Shown here: positions 2,441 to 7,060 of the stretch, piece after piece
Layout: every line of letters starts with the position of its first letter
Numbering within the stretch: the stretch's first letter is position 1
Source of the DNA: a virus
DNA: 44,966 nt
Direction: 5' to 3' (one strand)
Virus record (IMG/VR): IMGVR_UViG_3300025151_000073
Span: 1 to 44,966 of that record
Made by a program: the position numbers and the translations under genes
The notes under the pieces: generated by a model
What the model was told of the DNA's origin: nothing
Seen by the model: only the letters and a program-made list of their open reading frames with translations
The model's database searches: none

Positions 2441-2464
2441 CTGTGACACTTGAATAACAGTCAC

Positions 2465-2491
2465 ACCACTCCTTGCACGGGGTGGTTTTTT
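2465..2491 (+). terminator. Rho-independent terminator after cp12
   Basis: An eight-pair stem (ACCACTCC with GGGGTGGT, one T-G pair) with loop TTGCAC runs into six Ts. It ends the cp12 transcript. The loop sequence also serves as a plausible -35 hexamer of the next promoter. Confidence 0.8.
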
Positions 2492-2501
2492 ATTGTATAA
2501 T
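2473..2501 (+). promoter_or_regulatory. Sigma70-like promoter of the restriction-modification operon
   Basis: TTGCAC (2473-2478), a 17-nt spacer and TATAAT (2496-2501) form a near-consensus promoter embedded in the preceding terminator. Transcription would begin near 2508, downstream of the ATG at 2504, so translation should start later. The ATG at 2531 has GAGG 8 nt upstream and lies 35 nt from the -10, like other genes here. Confidence 0.7.
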
Positions 2502-2530
2502 ACATGGGTAAAGCAATCGAGGCTATGCCC

Positions 2531-3217
2531 ATGCTACTTTCAGAATTCAAGCAAAAGTTTTGTGCTATCAAGGCAAGAGGTTTCATAAAATCACAACGTA
2601 AAGGTGATGGTGGTGTGGGTAACACTCTTGAAAATGAATTGGGACTGCAAGAGAATAACATCGCAGGACCAGATATTGAGGGAAATGAACTCAAAGCAGC
2701 ACGTAAAGGTGCTGGTGGTAAGCAGACACTGTTCAACAAAGAGGGTGAGTGGGTTGTATCGCAGAAAGATTACATTGCACAATACGGTTTTCCTCACACC
2801 ACAAAAATTGGTGAGATGAGTGGACAATCTACCGTCACCAAGACTGTTAACAACCGTGGTCTATCTATTGTGACCACTGATGATTATTGTGCTGTTGTGC
2901 ATGGTGATACTATCATCGTTAAGTGGGATTGGGAGACACTAGTCAACCAGTTTGGTAAGAAGTTTCCTGCATGTGTGAAAGTATTTGCTGACGTTGAAAA
3001 ACGTGACGGTGTAGAATACTTCCACTACAATGAAGTATATCGTTTCATTGGCACTGATAAGAATTTGTTTCGCACTGCAATCGAAAATAATATGATTGCC
3101 ATTGATATTCGTATGCGTACACAAAACAATATTGGCAAATCTCTTCGTAATCGTGGTACTGCATTTCGTATAAATCATGGTAGAATGGAAGAACTATTCA
3201 TTAAAGAGGAACTTTGA
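2531..3217 (+). CDS. MvaI/BcnI-family type II restriction endonuclease
   Basis: The protein carries the MvaI/BcnI signature in order: GFIKSQRKGDGGVGNTLE near the N-terminus (about residues 17-34), then NNIAGPDIEGNELKAAR. The latter holds a PD-x4-E-x-K nuclease core (PD at 47-48, E53, K55), and a C-terminal RGTAFRINHG lies near residue 207. Length (228 aa, or 237 from ATG 2504) fits the 240-250 residues I recall for MvaI and BcnI, so it looks intact. The known enzymes act as monomers on CCWGG or CCSGG; the site here cannot be read from sequence. I chose ATG 2531 from promoter position and the GAGG ribosome site. The stop overlaps the methyltransferase start. Confidence 0.85.
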   Translation: MLLSEFKQKFCAIKARGFIKSQRKGDGGVGNTLENELGLQENNIAGPDIEGNELKAARKGAGGKQTLFNKEGEWVVSQKDYIAQYGFPHTTKIGEMSGQSTVTKTVNNRGLSIVTTDDYCAVVHGDTIIVKWDWETLVNQFGKKFPACVKVFADVEKRDGVEYFHYNEVYRFIGTDKNLFRTAIENNMIAIDIRMRTQNNIGKSLRNRGTAFRINHGRMEELFIKEEL

Positions 3218-4119
3218 AGGACACTATTCTGTATGGAGACTGTAGAGAGACGTTGCGACAGTTCGCAGCGTCTGGTGTACGCGCTCGCATGTGTGTGACA
3301 TCACCACCATACTATGGGTTGCGTGACTATGGTAATGAAGATGCACAGATAGGTCTAGAAGAATCTCCAGAAGAGTTTATTCAACAATTAGTTGAAGTGT
3401 TTCGTGGTGTGCGTGATTGTCTCACCGATGATGGCACACTATGGGTTAACATTGGTGATAGTTACTATAATTATCGTGGAGGAAAGGGTCAGGCATTACC
3501 AAAACAATCTGTTGCCAACACAAATCAAGATCTGCCACAAGGAAAAAATCCTAGACGTGGTAATAAACTGAAAGGATATAAGGAGAAAGATCTTATTGGT
3601 ATTCCTTGGATGCTTGCATTTGCTTTACGTGCAGATGGATGGTACTTGAGACAAGATATCATTTGGAGTAAGCCAAATCCAATGCCAGAAAGTATGAAAG
3701 ATAGGTGTACTAAATCTCATGAATATATATTTTTACTGAGTAAAAAACAAAATTATTTCTTTGATGTTGAAAGTATAAAAGAACCTACTATTGATGGTAA
3801 ATCATTGAAAAGAAAGAAAAGTGTTTGGAATATTCAAACAAAACCTTATAAGGGTGCTCACTTCGCAGTTTATCCTCCTGAACTTATTGAACCTGCTATT
3901 CTTGCTGGTAGTGAAGAGGGTGATATCATTCTTGATCCTTTTATGGGTTCTGGAACTACGGCAATGGTTTCTAAAAGTTTAGGTAGGCATTATATTGGAT
4001 GTGAACTTCATAAAGAATATGGAGAACTAATTGATAATAGGATATCTGAATACAATAAAATATATACTGCAAAGGATAAACAAATTGGTGAAGGTAAACT
4101 TATTTTTGAGGACGAATAA
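3214..4119 (+). CDS. DNA methyltransferase of the restriction-modification pair (TSPPY type)
   Basis: A 301-residue class-beta DNA methyltransferase: catalytic TSPPY at residues 29-33 precedes the AdoMet-binding DPFMGSGTT at 241-249. SPPY (rather than DPPY) is typical of N4-cytosine enzymes, as expected for a partner of a MvaI/BcnI-type nuclease, but some adenine enzymes share it. The start is TTG at 3214, forming TTGA with the endonuclease stop; the next in-frame ATG would remove the ILYGDCRETL motif. The residue range 34-240 contains PWMLAFALRADGW and the IIWSKPNPMPES motif usual in this group. Presumably it protects phage DNA from the adjacent nuclease. A TTG start for the protective enzyme is odd. 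Confidence 0.88.
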   Translation: MKDTILYGDCRETLRQFAASGVRARMCVTSPPYYGLRDYGNEDAQIGLEESPEEFIQQLVEVFRGVRDCLTDDGTLWVNIGDSYYNYRGGKGQALPKQSVANTNQDLPQGKNPRRGNKLKGYKEKDLIGIPWMLAFALRADGWYLRQDIIWSKPNPMPESMKDRCTKSHEYIFLLSKKQNYFFDVESIKEPTIDGKSLKRKKSVWNIQTKPYKGAHFAVYPPELIEPAILAGSEEGDIILDPFMGSGTTAMVSKSLGRHYIGCELHKEYGELIDNRISEYNKIYTAKDKQIGEGKLIFEDE

Positions 4120-4132
4120 ACCACTTCTCAAA

Positions 4133-4195
4133 CTGTCCACTCTGCCCCTGACTCTGCCCCACTCTGCCCTATAATTACTAGGTAATCAAGCAAAG
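4133..4195 (+). promoter_or_regulatory. Promoter cassette A, copy 1
   Basis: TATAAT at 4170-4175 is followed by the family-specific GTAATCAAG stretch containing the ribosome site, and ATG 4201 is 31 nt downstream. A CTGTCCA box starts 37 nt before the -10, at the position where better copies have GTGTCAC. There is no good -35 hexamer. Confidence 0.65.
4139..4170 (+). repeat. Three tandem copies of ACTCTGCCC(C/T)
   Basis: Copies start at 4139, 4151 and 4161; the first two are separated by TG. They fill the spacer and upstream region of the promoter at 4170, so they could bind a regulator or be a slippage product. Confidence 0.6.
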
Positions 4196-4793: not shown

Positions 4794-4976
4794 ATGACCA
4801 CCTTCGACTTTGAAACCGAATATTACTGGGGTGCTCTCATGGTCAAACTGGTTCCCCTGTTTGCTATGGATTCTTATCGTGCGGATGATGATGAATTAGT
4901 ATGGGTCTATGATGTGAATAACCCTAAGAATGGGTATCACGTTCCTGCTCGCAATCTTTCCACCTATTCTTATTGA
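4794..4976 (+). CDS. Hypothetical protein, 60 aa
   Basis: The 60-residue acidic, aromatic-rich protein starts at ATG 4794, right after promoter cassette A copy 2. No motif is recognised. The first codons (MTT) and upstream leader are nearly identical to those of the gene at 7129, reflecting the duplicated cassette. Its stop lies 2 nt before the next gene. Confidence 0.6.
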   Translation: MTTFDFETEYYWGALMVKLVPLFAMDSYRADDDELVWVYDVNNPKNGYHVPARNLSTYSY

Positions 4977-4978
4977 TT

Positions 4979-5464
4979 ATGTCTAATCGTGACAATCATG
5001 CTTCTCGTGACACTACCACAGGCAAGATCAATGAGGACTCCATTGAAAAGTTTCTTCATGAATCTTTTGATGGACCTGTCTATCCACAAACAGTAGTTGG
5101 CACACAATTTAATACAAACAAACAACATATCGTTGATGTTCTTCTTGGTGGAGAAGCACACAAGAAAAAACCAAAAGCAAAACGATGGATTTCTGAACAC
5201 AAAGGTGGCAGACTGGTGAGTCTTAAGTATCAAGCGATTGAAGGAACTGCTGAAGAAAAAATTCCTTTTGAATTCTGGAAACTTAAAGATGCCATCGACA
5301 AGTATGGTTATGAATCTGCTGTGATTGTTTTATGTGGTGATTCTGGTTGGACTCTAAAACAAGAGTATCTAGATTTAGAGACTAAGAAACACTTTGAAAG
5401 TGTTTATCCTGGTGTCACTATTGTCGATGAAGAAACTTTTCGTCAACAGTTGACAACTAACTGA
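4979..5464 (+). CDS. PD-(D/E)XK-like nuclease domain protein
   Basis: The 161-residue protein contains HIVDVLL (D53) and, after a beta-strand gap, RLVSLKYQAIEGTAEEKIPFE (residues 78-98). The latter resembles small PD-(D/E)XK nucleases in which (E/S)-x-K-x-Q is followed by a GTAEEK(I/V)P(F/Y)E segment. The usual glutamate of ExK is replaced by Ser81 here, while Lys83 and Gln85 are kept. Alternating hydrophobic strand AVIVLCGD follows. It lies between a restriction-modification pair and a ParB-like/Dam pair, suggesting DNA cleavage or recognition of modified DNA. ATG 4979 was preferred to TTG 4973. Family assignment is moderate. Confidence 0.65.
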   Translation: MSNRDNHASRDTTTGKINEDSIEKFLHESFDGPVYPQTVVGTQFNTNKQHIVDVLLGGEAHKKKPKAKRWISEHKGGRLVSLKYQAIEGTAEEKIPFEFWKLKDAIDKYGYESAVIVLCGDSGWTLKQEYLDLETKKHFESVYPGVTIVDEETFRQQLTTN

Positions 5465-5478
5465 AAATAGTTTATACT
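5450..5478 (+). promoter_or_regulatory. Consensus sigma70 promoter of the ParB-like/Dam operon
   Basis: TTGACA (5450-5455) and TATACT (5473-5478) are separated by exactly 17 nt. The -35 lies inside the last codons of the upstream gene. The start codon at 5547 is about 70 nt downstream, leaving a leader of about 60 nt that contains an inverted repeat. Confidence 0.8.
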
Positions 5479-5505
5479 AAATAAATCGGTCCAAATCAGA
5501 GGATG

Positions 5506-5542
5506 ACCTTAAACTCTACTCTTATTTTCCTCCATTTAAGGT
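5506..5542 (+). repeat. Inverted repeat in the 5' leader of the ParB-like gene
   Basis: ACCTTAAA (5506-5513) and TTTAAGGT (5535-5542) are perfect complements with a 21-nt loop containing TTTTCCTCC. The right arm ends 4 nt before ATG 5547. In RNA the hairpin would cover the initiation region, so it may act as a translational operator or protein site. Confidence 0.55.
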
Positions 5543-5546
5543 TAAA

Positions 5547-6545
5547 ATGAAAAACTACTTAGAAGATCCACGTCTCCTGACACTTCAGGAAATTATTGAC
5601 GACCCAAAAAACAAAATTAGCACAGTCAAATTTTTGAAGGGTGCAGCGCATAAAGACGACATTTATGTGCATCCCATTGACGACACAAAAGTTAAAAAGA
5701 AAATATATTTTGCATTTATTCGTGCAAGTAAACTAAAAGTTAGTAGAGACTATCAACGTTACATTTGTCTCACTACGCTTAAAAAAGCAAAACAATTTGA
5801 TTATATTCTGTGCCAGACGCTTGTTGTTGCACTGCGACCAGATGGAACTTATGTTATCATCGACGGACAACATAAGGCAATTATGGCAATTCTTTCTGGA
5901 GAAGAATTGGATATTCCTTGTCAGGTAATTGTTCATGATCCTAACAGCACTCTTCAGCAGTGTATTGAAGAGGAAGCAAAACTTTTTGAAAAGTATAACA
6001 CTTCTCGCAAAAACACTAGCACACTTGATAAGGTTCGAGCAGGACTTTCTTATAGTGATGAGTGGGCAAAAGAATTTGAGGAGAACTGGATTACCATTGG
6101 TATTCAATCTGAGGGGATTGGATATGATGATGGTGTAGAAGTTAATGGTTGGGCAAAAGCAAATGAATCGATTGGAAAATGGAAGATTATTCCAACAAAA
6201 AAAGCAGTAGATTTTCTCAAACCAGTCTATAAAAAGTGGAATCTTGATGCTGTTGATGGGAGCATGATCGGTGGTCTTGCTGCAATTCAAACTCTGCTAG
6301 ATGCTGTTGGTGATGCAAAAAAAGGAACTGGACTTAAATGGTACTTAACTAATAACTTTTCCAAAATTTCAAAATCTGTTTGGACAAAAAACACTAGAGG
6401 TGCATCTGACATTTTGATTGCGCGAAAGATTGTTGACGACTATAATGGTGATGTTGCTAAAAACAACATCAAATGTGAATGTGCTGCTATTGGCGAAGAT
6501 TTGCTGAAAGGAGTAGGACTTGCAGACCCAACTAAATTGAACTGA
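5547..6545 (+). CDS. ParB-like / DGQH-motif domain protein, 332 aa
   Basis: Residues 66-71 (SRDYQR) and 104-110 (IIDGQHK) reproduce the two motifs of the ParB/sulfiredoxin fold, where ParB has DxYQR and a DGxHR nucleotide-binding loop; DndB/DGQHR-type proteins share the second. The C-terminal 200 residues (after QCIEEEAKLFEKYNTSRK) have no fold I recognise. Such proteins in phages have been annotated as ParB-like nucleases or DNA-modification partners. A 2-nt gap to the Dam-type methyltransferase indicates one operon. No ribosome site of normal strength is visible before ATG. Nuclease or CTPase activity is untested. Confidence 0.7.
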   Translation: MKNYLEDPRLLTLQEIIDDPKNKISTVKFLKGAAHKDDIYVHPIDDTKVKKKIYFAFIRASKLKVSRDYQRYICLTTLKKAKQFDYILCQTLVVALRPDGTYVIIDGQHKAIMAILSGEELDIPCQVIVHDPNSTLQQCIEEEAKLFEKYNTSRKNTSTLDKVRAGLSYSDEWAKEFEENWITIGIQSEGIGYDDGVEVNGWAKANESIGKWKIIPTKKAVDFLKPVYKKWNLDAVDGSMIGGLAAIQTLLDAVGDAKKGTGLKWYLTNNFSKISKSVWTKNTRGASDILIARKIVDDYNGDVAKNNIKCECAAIGEDLLKGVGLADPTKLN

Positions 6546-6547
6546 TT

Positions 6548-7060
6548 ATGACATCATCCACACTCAAAGTATTAACAGCAACCACAGGCAATCGTAAGGA
6601 CACATGGAACACTCCCCCCGAATTTGTGGGGGATGTTCTTAAGTTCTTCGGTGGCAGAGTTGGACTTGATCCGTGCTCTAATAGTGCGGAAGAACCTAAT
6701 GTTCCTGCCGACAAAGTTTATACTGAAGAAATGGATGGACTCAAGCAAAGTTGGGTTGCCGATAGTGTTTTTATGAATCATCCATATTCTGCCAGTAAAA
6801 CATGGATTCCCCATGCTGCTGCCCAGTATGAAAATGGAAATGCAAAAGAAATGGTTCTTCTCATTAAGTTGGACGTTTCTACCAAGTGGTGGAGATCTAT
6901 TGAGAAATATCCATGGATTGCTGTTAATCGAAGATTGAGATTCGGTGCTGCTGCTAGTGCCGCACCATTTCAATCTGCCGTAATCTATCTGGGAACTGAC
7001 CTTGAACGATTTAAGAACACTTTCGGTAAATATGGCACTTGCTATGTGCCAGTAAATTAG
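6548..7060 (+). CDS. Dam-family N6-adenine DNA methyltransferase
   Basis: The 170-residue protein fits the phage N-6-adenine methyltransferase family (PF05869 type): W20-NTPPE start, GLDPCSN (39-45) as the AdoMet-loop region, FMNHPYS (75-81) in place of the catalytic NPPYS, then WW at 114-115 and NRRLRFG...APFQSAVIYLG at 127-149. The second residue of the catalytic tetrapeptide is His instead of Pro (NHPY), which is unusual and may alter activity. It is co-transcribed with the ParB-like gene. It could protect DNA against the neighbouring PD-(D/E)XK protein or mimic host methylation. Confidence 0.82.
   Translation: MTSSTLKVLTATTGNRKDTWNTPPEFVGDVLKFFGGRVGLDPCSNSAEEPNVPADKVYTEEMDGLKQSWVADSVFMNHPYSASKTWIPHAAAQYENGNAKEMVLLIKLDVSTKWWRSIEKYPWIAVNRRLRFGAAASAAPFQSAVIYLGTDLERFKNTFGKYGTCYVPVN

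Follow-up and report, generated by a model that had tools for sequence, protein, structure and literature searches.

The window, by which we mean the whole stretch of DNA analysed here, is a virus record of 44,966 nt (IMG/VR record IMGVR_UViG_3300025151_000073, positions 1 to 44,966), probably a fragment of a larger genome. Two genes that overlap by 4 nt (TTGA) lie near its beginning: the one for a nuclease, which carries the motifs GGVGNTLE and PD-IEGN-E-L-K, and the one for a methyltransferase, running from a TTG to a TAA codon. They are preceded by an intrinsic terminator to which a putative promoter is fused (Table 1). Baseplate genes of the gp25/gp6/gp8 type and a gene order matching that of Synechococcus myoviruses, Bellamy for example, agree with the T4-like cyanophage that the original prediction, made from the letters of this DNA, had recognized. 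We infer the host from these baseplate genes, which are of the T4 type, and from the resemblance to Synechococcus phages such as Bellamy and S-SKS1.

Table 1. Features of the nuclease-methyltransferase locus, in coordinates of the window
Feature	Coordinates	Strand	Evidence
Intrinsic terminator (8-bp stem, 6-nt loop, T tract) ending the upstream unit	2465..2492	+	Terminator scan; RNA fold
Putative sigma70-like promoter TTGCAC-17 nt-TATAAT, fused to the terminator	2473..2501	+	Read from sequence; layout shared with relatives
MvaI/BcnI-family type II restriction endonuclease	2504..3217	+	PF15515, R.MvaI/R.BcnI matches, AlphaFold/Foldseek, catalytic residues, dN/dS
Beta-class amino-methyltransferase (TSPPY), probable N4-cytosine methyltransferase	3214..4119	+	PF01555, plasmid methyltransferase similarity, pairing

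The family proposed for the nuclease holds. The protein matches PF15515 with 138 bits (E=5e-40, for a cut-off of 25) over profile positions 2-227 of 227, that is, over its full length, and the GGVGNTLE and PD-x4-E-x-K motifs are both present, as had been read from the translation. Among PDB sequences it retrieves R.MvaI (E=2e-13) and R.BcnI (E=4e-8) and nothing else, a family-profile search lifting these matches to 4e-39 and 2e-30, respectively. Identity with the two solved enzymes is about 24%, and no NCBIfam or PHROG family was found for the protein. An AlphaFold model (pLDDT 91) was used for a Foldseek search, where all six matches at E<=0.001 are BcnI or MvaI; compared with the DNA-bound structures, the model reaches a TM score of 0.80 for MvaI and 0.77 for BcnI. 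The catalytic residues of MvaI, which we take to be E36, D50, E55 and K57, align with E34, D48, E53 and K55 of the phage protein (numbered in its 228-aa form). All four are invariant in 23 aligned sequences, and the active site is unmutated. Also kept are arginines aligned with MvaI R209 and R230, BcnI having a cysteine at the R209 position. Pairwise dN/dS values of 0.08-0.32 are those of purifying selection, and the gene has therefore been kept functional. Its translation probably starts at ATG 2531, giving 228 aa, rather than at ATG 2504, which would give 237: the majority of relatives start at ATG 2531 and a GAGG lies 8 nt upstream of it, whereas ATG 2504 comes just 2 nt after the TATAAT of the -10 box (2496-2501), too near to be favoured.

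The methyltransferase matches PF01555 with 184 bits (E=3.5e-54). Its motifs are intact and in the order of the beta class, with TSPPYYGLRDYG near the N-terminus (TSPPY) and DPFMGSGTT near the C-terminus. The TTG start is supported by a GAGG upstream and by its conservation in nearly all nuclease-bearing relatives, so that the prediction of an intact TSPPY enzyme, beginning with TTG inside the nuclease gene, has been confirmed. The closest characterized counterparts, at 49-50% identity, are plasmid enzymes whose partner nucleases are of the XcyI and SmaI types, M.Pac25I among them; the phage enzyme is probably likewise an N4-cytosine methyltransferase. The same TSPPY beta-class layout is found in these systems, which recognize CCCGGG. 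The phage pair differs from them in that its nuclease is of the MvaI/BcnI type and its nuclease gene comes first.

Upstream of the pair, the RNA of the terminator folds with -12.8 kcal/mol (z -4.4), and its loop contains the -35-like TTGCAC of the promoter. This -35 box is weak and the promoter falls below the threshold of a consensus scan. Relatives with a like layout have TATAAT, TATAGT or TATATT at the equivalent place: one contig (L008) displays a similar hairpin before the pair with TTGACA in its loop (TTGACA-17-TATATT), and the L009 group has TTGCAA-17-TATAGT. It would be this promoter that drives the pair, and both genes appear to share it. The arrangement recalls the PeSL promoter-terminator cassettes of T4-type phages (a concept summarized in PMC4503421), in which a variable region holds a stem-loop terminator joined to a promoter of the early type, a likeness that we take only as a lead. 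It had been argued that an order with the nuclease first needs timing control. In principle it does not: virion DNA would arrive already methylated from the previous cycle, so that only newly replicated DNA needs protection, and the genes appear to be under one promoter. Just downstream of the pair lies a promoter-like CTGACT-16-TATAAT, in an intergenic block (4131-4190) of which parts are about 96% identical to sequences between genes of several Synechococcus phages, where the flanking genes differ. Further on, three genes in a row (4973-7060) may make up another nuclease-methylase cluster: they code for a weak PD-(D/E)XK-type protein (PDDEXK_11, slightly below cut-off), for a ParB-like/DUF6551 protein and for a phage Dam methylase. 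In another contig (L178), a relative of the PD-(D/E)XK-type gene is found upstream of an adenine methylase that is different and D12-like.

How widespread is the pair? A scan of IMG/VR found the nuclease in 30 contigs. Leaving aside one contig that ends too early, all but two have the methyltransferase directly downstream (27 of 29), and the comparison with related cyanophages thus supports the pairing. A scan with the methyltransferase added two pairs (L053 and L054), which brings to 29 the IMG/VR contigs carrying both genes. As some contigs with the nuclease nearly duplicate others, the number of distinct nuclease sequences is 21, counting the window and a single-cell genome. The latter, an unannotated single-cell-derived Kyanoviridae genome with the methyltransferase adjacent, is the sole carrier of the nuclease among 50,697 phage records, and all cultured phages in that set lack it. 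A methyltransferase 60-80% identical to that of the window is present in 39 phage records, this genome being the only one of them to have the nuclease. Many phage isolates carry the methyltransferase alone, and its frequent retention without the nuclease means that it has a role of its own too. Two IMG/VR contigs have the nuclease with no adjacent methyltransferase (L025, 8007-8699; L030, 7980-8681). In L025, a T4-like contig of 127 kb, no PF01555 or PF00145 gene was found, so that the nuclease may sometimes manage without such a partner, unless the contig is incomplete. The two intact, adjacent genes expected of a type II restriction-modification system are in place, with the 4-nt overlap of the window and an adjacency conserved in relatives. 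Chance does not explain this adjacency, which many contigs share and purifying selection maintains. The pair had been considered unusual for a lytic cyanomyovirus. It is no isolated oddity, being a module that is met repeatedly in T4-like cyanophages not yet cultured. In the literature searched, mostly outside subscription journals, no publication on a restriction-modification pair in cyanophages was found.

Two pair-bearing contigs (L123 and L124) are assigned to metagenome-assembled genomes of Rhodopirellula and of a euryarchaeote; these contigs look like cyanophage sequences that have contaminated the bins. In two others (L081, 242-691; L166, 2501-2950) a nuclease-like protein of 149 aa (GDIYVDGVPINIKS) abuts the same methyltransferase. 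It was considered as a general second partner and rejected: of its 13 relatives in viral contigs few are beside the methyltransferase, those in other marine phage contigs being mostly away from it.

The history of the module is one of exchange. In the nuclease tree the cyanophage enzymes make up one clade (100/100), which excludes the bacterial relatives as well as one distant viral copy. They resemble R.MvaI and R.BcnI in profile, fold and catalytic set (E, D, E, K), and differ from them by this clade of their own and by their methyltransferase partner. Most of the bacterial family members examined adjoin a different methyltransferase, of about 420 aa, and among these bacterial neighbours no MvaI/BcnI-type nuclease was seen with a methyltransferase of the SmaI/XcyI type. 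The trees of the two phage genes conflict. L029 and L032 have sister nucleases and distant methyltransferases, the methyltransferase of L029 falling in a clade with those of L009, L010 and L014, whose nucleases differ. The genes must thus have changed partners, neither of them being damaged, in keeping with a single target common to both. The flanking genes are mostly unrelated between groups of pair-bearing contigs and, as a consequence, the module must have moved between sites.

MvaI cuts CCWGG and BcnI cuts CCSGG. By profile score the phage nuclease is nearer to MvaI (138 bits) than to BcnI (109 bits), and the residues at the R209 and R230 positions presumably matter for specificity. CCWGG is our best guess for the target of the pair, judged somewhat better than an even bet. 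This site is abundant in pair-bearing genomes, which display no strong depletion of it (104 seen for 117 expected in 95 kb, 33 for 25 and 30 for 40 in two others), as expected if it is protected. In a marine metaepigenome, m4C at CCWGG was reported solely in viral genomes; the gene pair was not linked to it there, and much of the marine viral methylation was ascribed to previous hosts (PMC9516812). Counting against CCWGG, the nearest characterized relatives of the methyltransferase recognize CCCGGG. However, while the window has CCGG sites, which would allow CCCGGG as its own target, close relatives of its methyltransferase sit in phages with none over 49-95 kb, making CCCGGG unlikely as the common target; it cannot be that of the many methyltransferase-carrying phages devoid of CCGG in the DNA examined. 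Several pair-bearing phages are themselves without CCGG, hence without CCSGG and CCCGGG, in the 9-95 kb examined, and there the methyltransferase would have nothing to protect unless its target is another.

Site avoidance was tried as a readout of the target and rejected. CCGG was compared between phages almost or wholly without it (L159, L160, L161, L162, L154-L158) and those that have it (the window, L163, L164). It is lacking in S-PM2 (0 seen for 38 expected in 49 kb), S-SSM5 (0 for 34), P-SSM7 (0 for 18) and a 95-kb contig (0 for 79), nearly so in syn9 (1 for 40), and present in the window (59), Bellamy (29) and S-SKS1 (40). Its total absence, the strongest signal obtained, is shared by many T4-like cyanophages, whether or not they carry one of the two genes, and does not extend to the window, and so it says nothing direct about the pair; in the 49 kb examined of each of S-PM2 and syn9, no relative of the methyltransferase was seen. 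This scarcity looks like avoidance of some CCGG-cutting activity, possibly the phages' own, and is not tied to the pair. The 127-kb contig with the nuclease alone has lost none of the candidate sites (CCWGG, 102 seen for 85 expected; CCSGG, 29 for 32). Over positions 1-44966 of the window, GGCC (3 for 44) and AGCT (7 for 104) are strongly depleted, and similarly in other cyanophages.

What could a lytic phage do with such a pair? Our preferred reading, with a probability of about 0.7, is that it is a working type II restriction-modification system with which a lytic T4-like cyanophage cuts unmodified host DNA, and perhaps that of rival phages. One phage promoter, acting early, would give a shared message from which the nuclease, then the methyltransferase, is translated. 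The methyltransferase, probably of the N4-cytosine type with a CCWGG-like site, would mark new phage DNA, so that virion DNA is protected upon its next entry. The MvaI-like nuclease would cut unmarked DNA at the same site, with the host chromosome as first victim, freeing nucleotides and silencing the host, and unmarked genomes of rival phages as further ones. A similar role has been proposed for the chlorovirus systems (that of PBCV-1, for example), where a lytic virus also codes for adjacent nuclease and methyltransferase: their nucleases are held responsible for rapid degradation of host DNA, with self-protection (PMC7019647). These viruses differ in having a eukaryotic algal host and other enzymes; their nucleases are packaged in the virion.

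The same enzymes might rather serve mainly against co-infecting phages, the nuclease destroying their unmarked DNA while other phage nucleases break that of the host. Isolates where no relative of the methyltransferase was seen offer plenty of candidate CCWGG sites (in 49 kb of each, S-PM2 has 53 and syn9 has 85), lone methyltransferases are common in isolates, as an antidote would be, and on the methyltransferase tree the nuclease must have been gained or lost at least four times. Yet the same cell contains, in the host chromosome, a much bigger unmarked target, and chlorovirus nucleases, when tested as the cause of mutual exclusion between viruses, were found not to be responsible (PMC7019647). 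We hold this use as the main one to be a minority possibility, the host chromosome being probably the main victim and rival phages a second one. Its extension to restriction warfare between cyanophages, where the pair would be the weapon and the lone methyltransferases of cultured cyanophages antidotes giving immunity, is more doubtful still.

It is improbable that the methyltransferase is all that counts, for anti-restriction or regulation, with the nuclease as a passenger or repurposed for other DNA processing. Methyltransferase-only phages are common and the 127-kb contig has a nuclease without methyltransferase, as this would allow; against it, the catalytic residues of the nuclease are all invariant, dN/dS goes down to 0.08, and the adjacency is kept across unrelated gene neighbourhoods. 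These varied neighbourhoods, where the module sometimes stands behind its own terminator-promoter cassette, would also suit a selfish addiction module of no benefit to the phage, whose genome would not survive loss of the methyltransferase. Several close methyltransferase relatives (the L036, L046 and L051 groups), however, are without the nuclease, which was thus readily lost or not gained, and addiction appears very unlikely.

If the pair is a working restriction-modification system, as we favour, several consequences follow. Its combination of an MvaI/BcnI nuclease with a SmaI/XcyI methyltransferase may yield a new reagent. Lone phage methyltransferases are common, and they are read as anti-restriction devices. 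An intact pair under selection in lytic cyanophages reverses the roles: here it is the virus that restricts, not the cell. Ocean cyanophages are not known to have the hydroxymethylcytosine of T4. The pair offers a testable way for them to tell their own DNA from that of their host, and it may account for the persistence, in other cyanophages, of lone methyltransferases that belong to this lineage.
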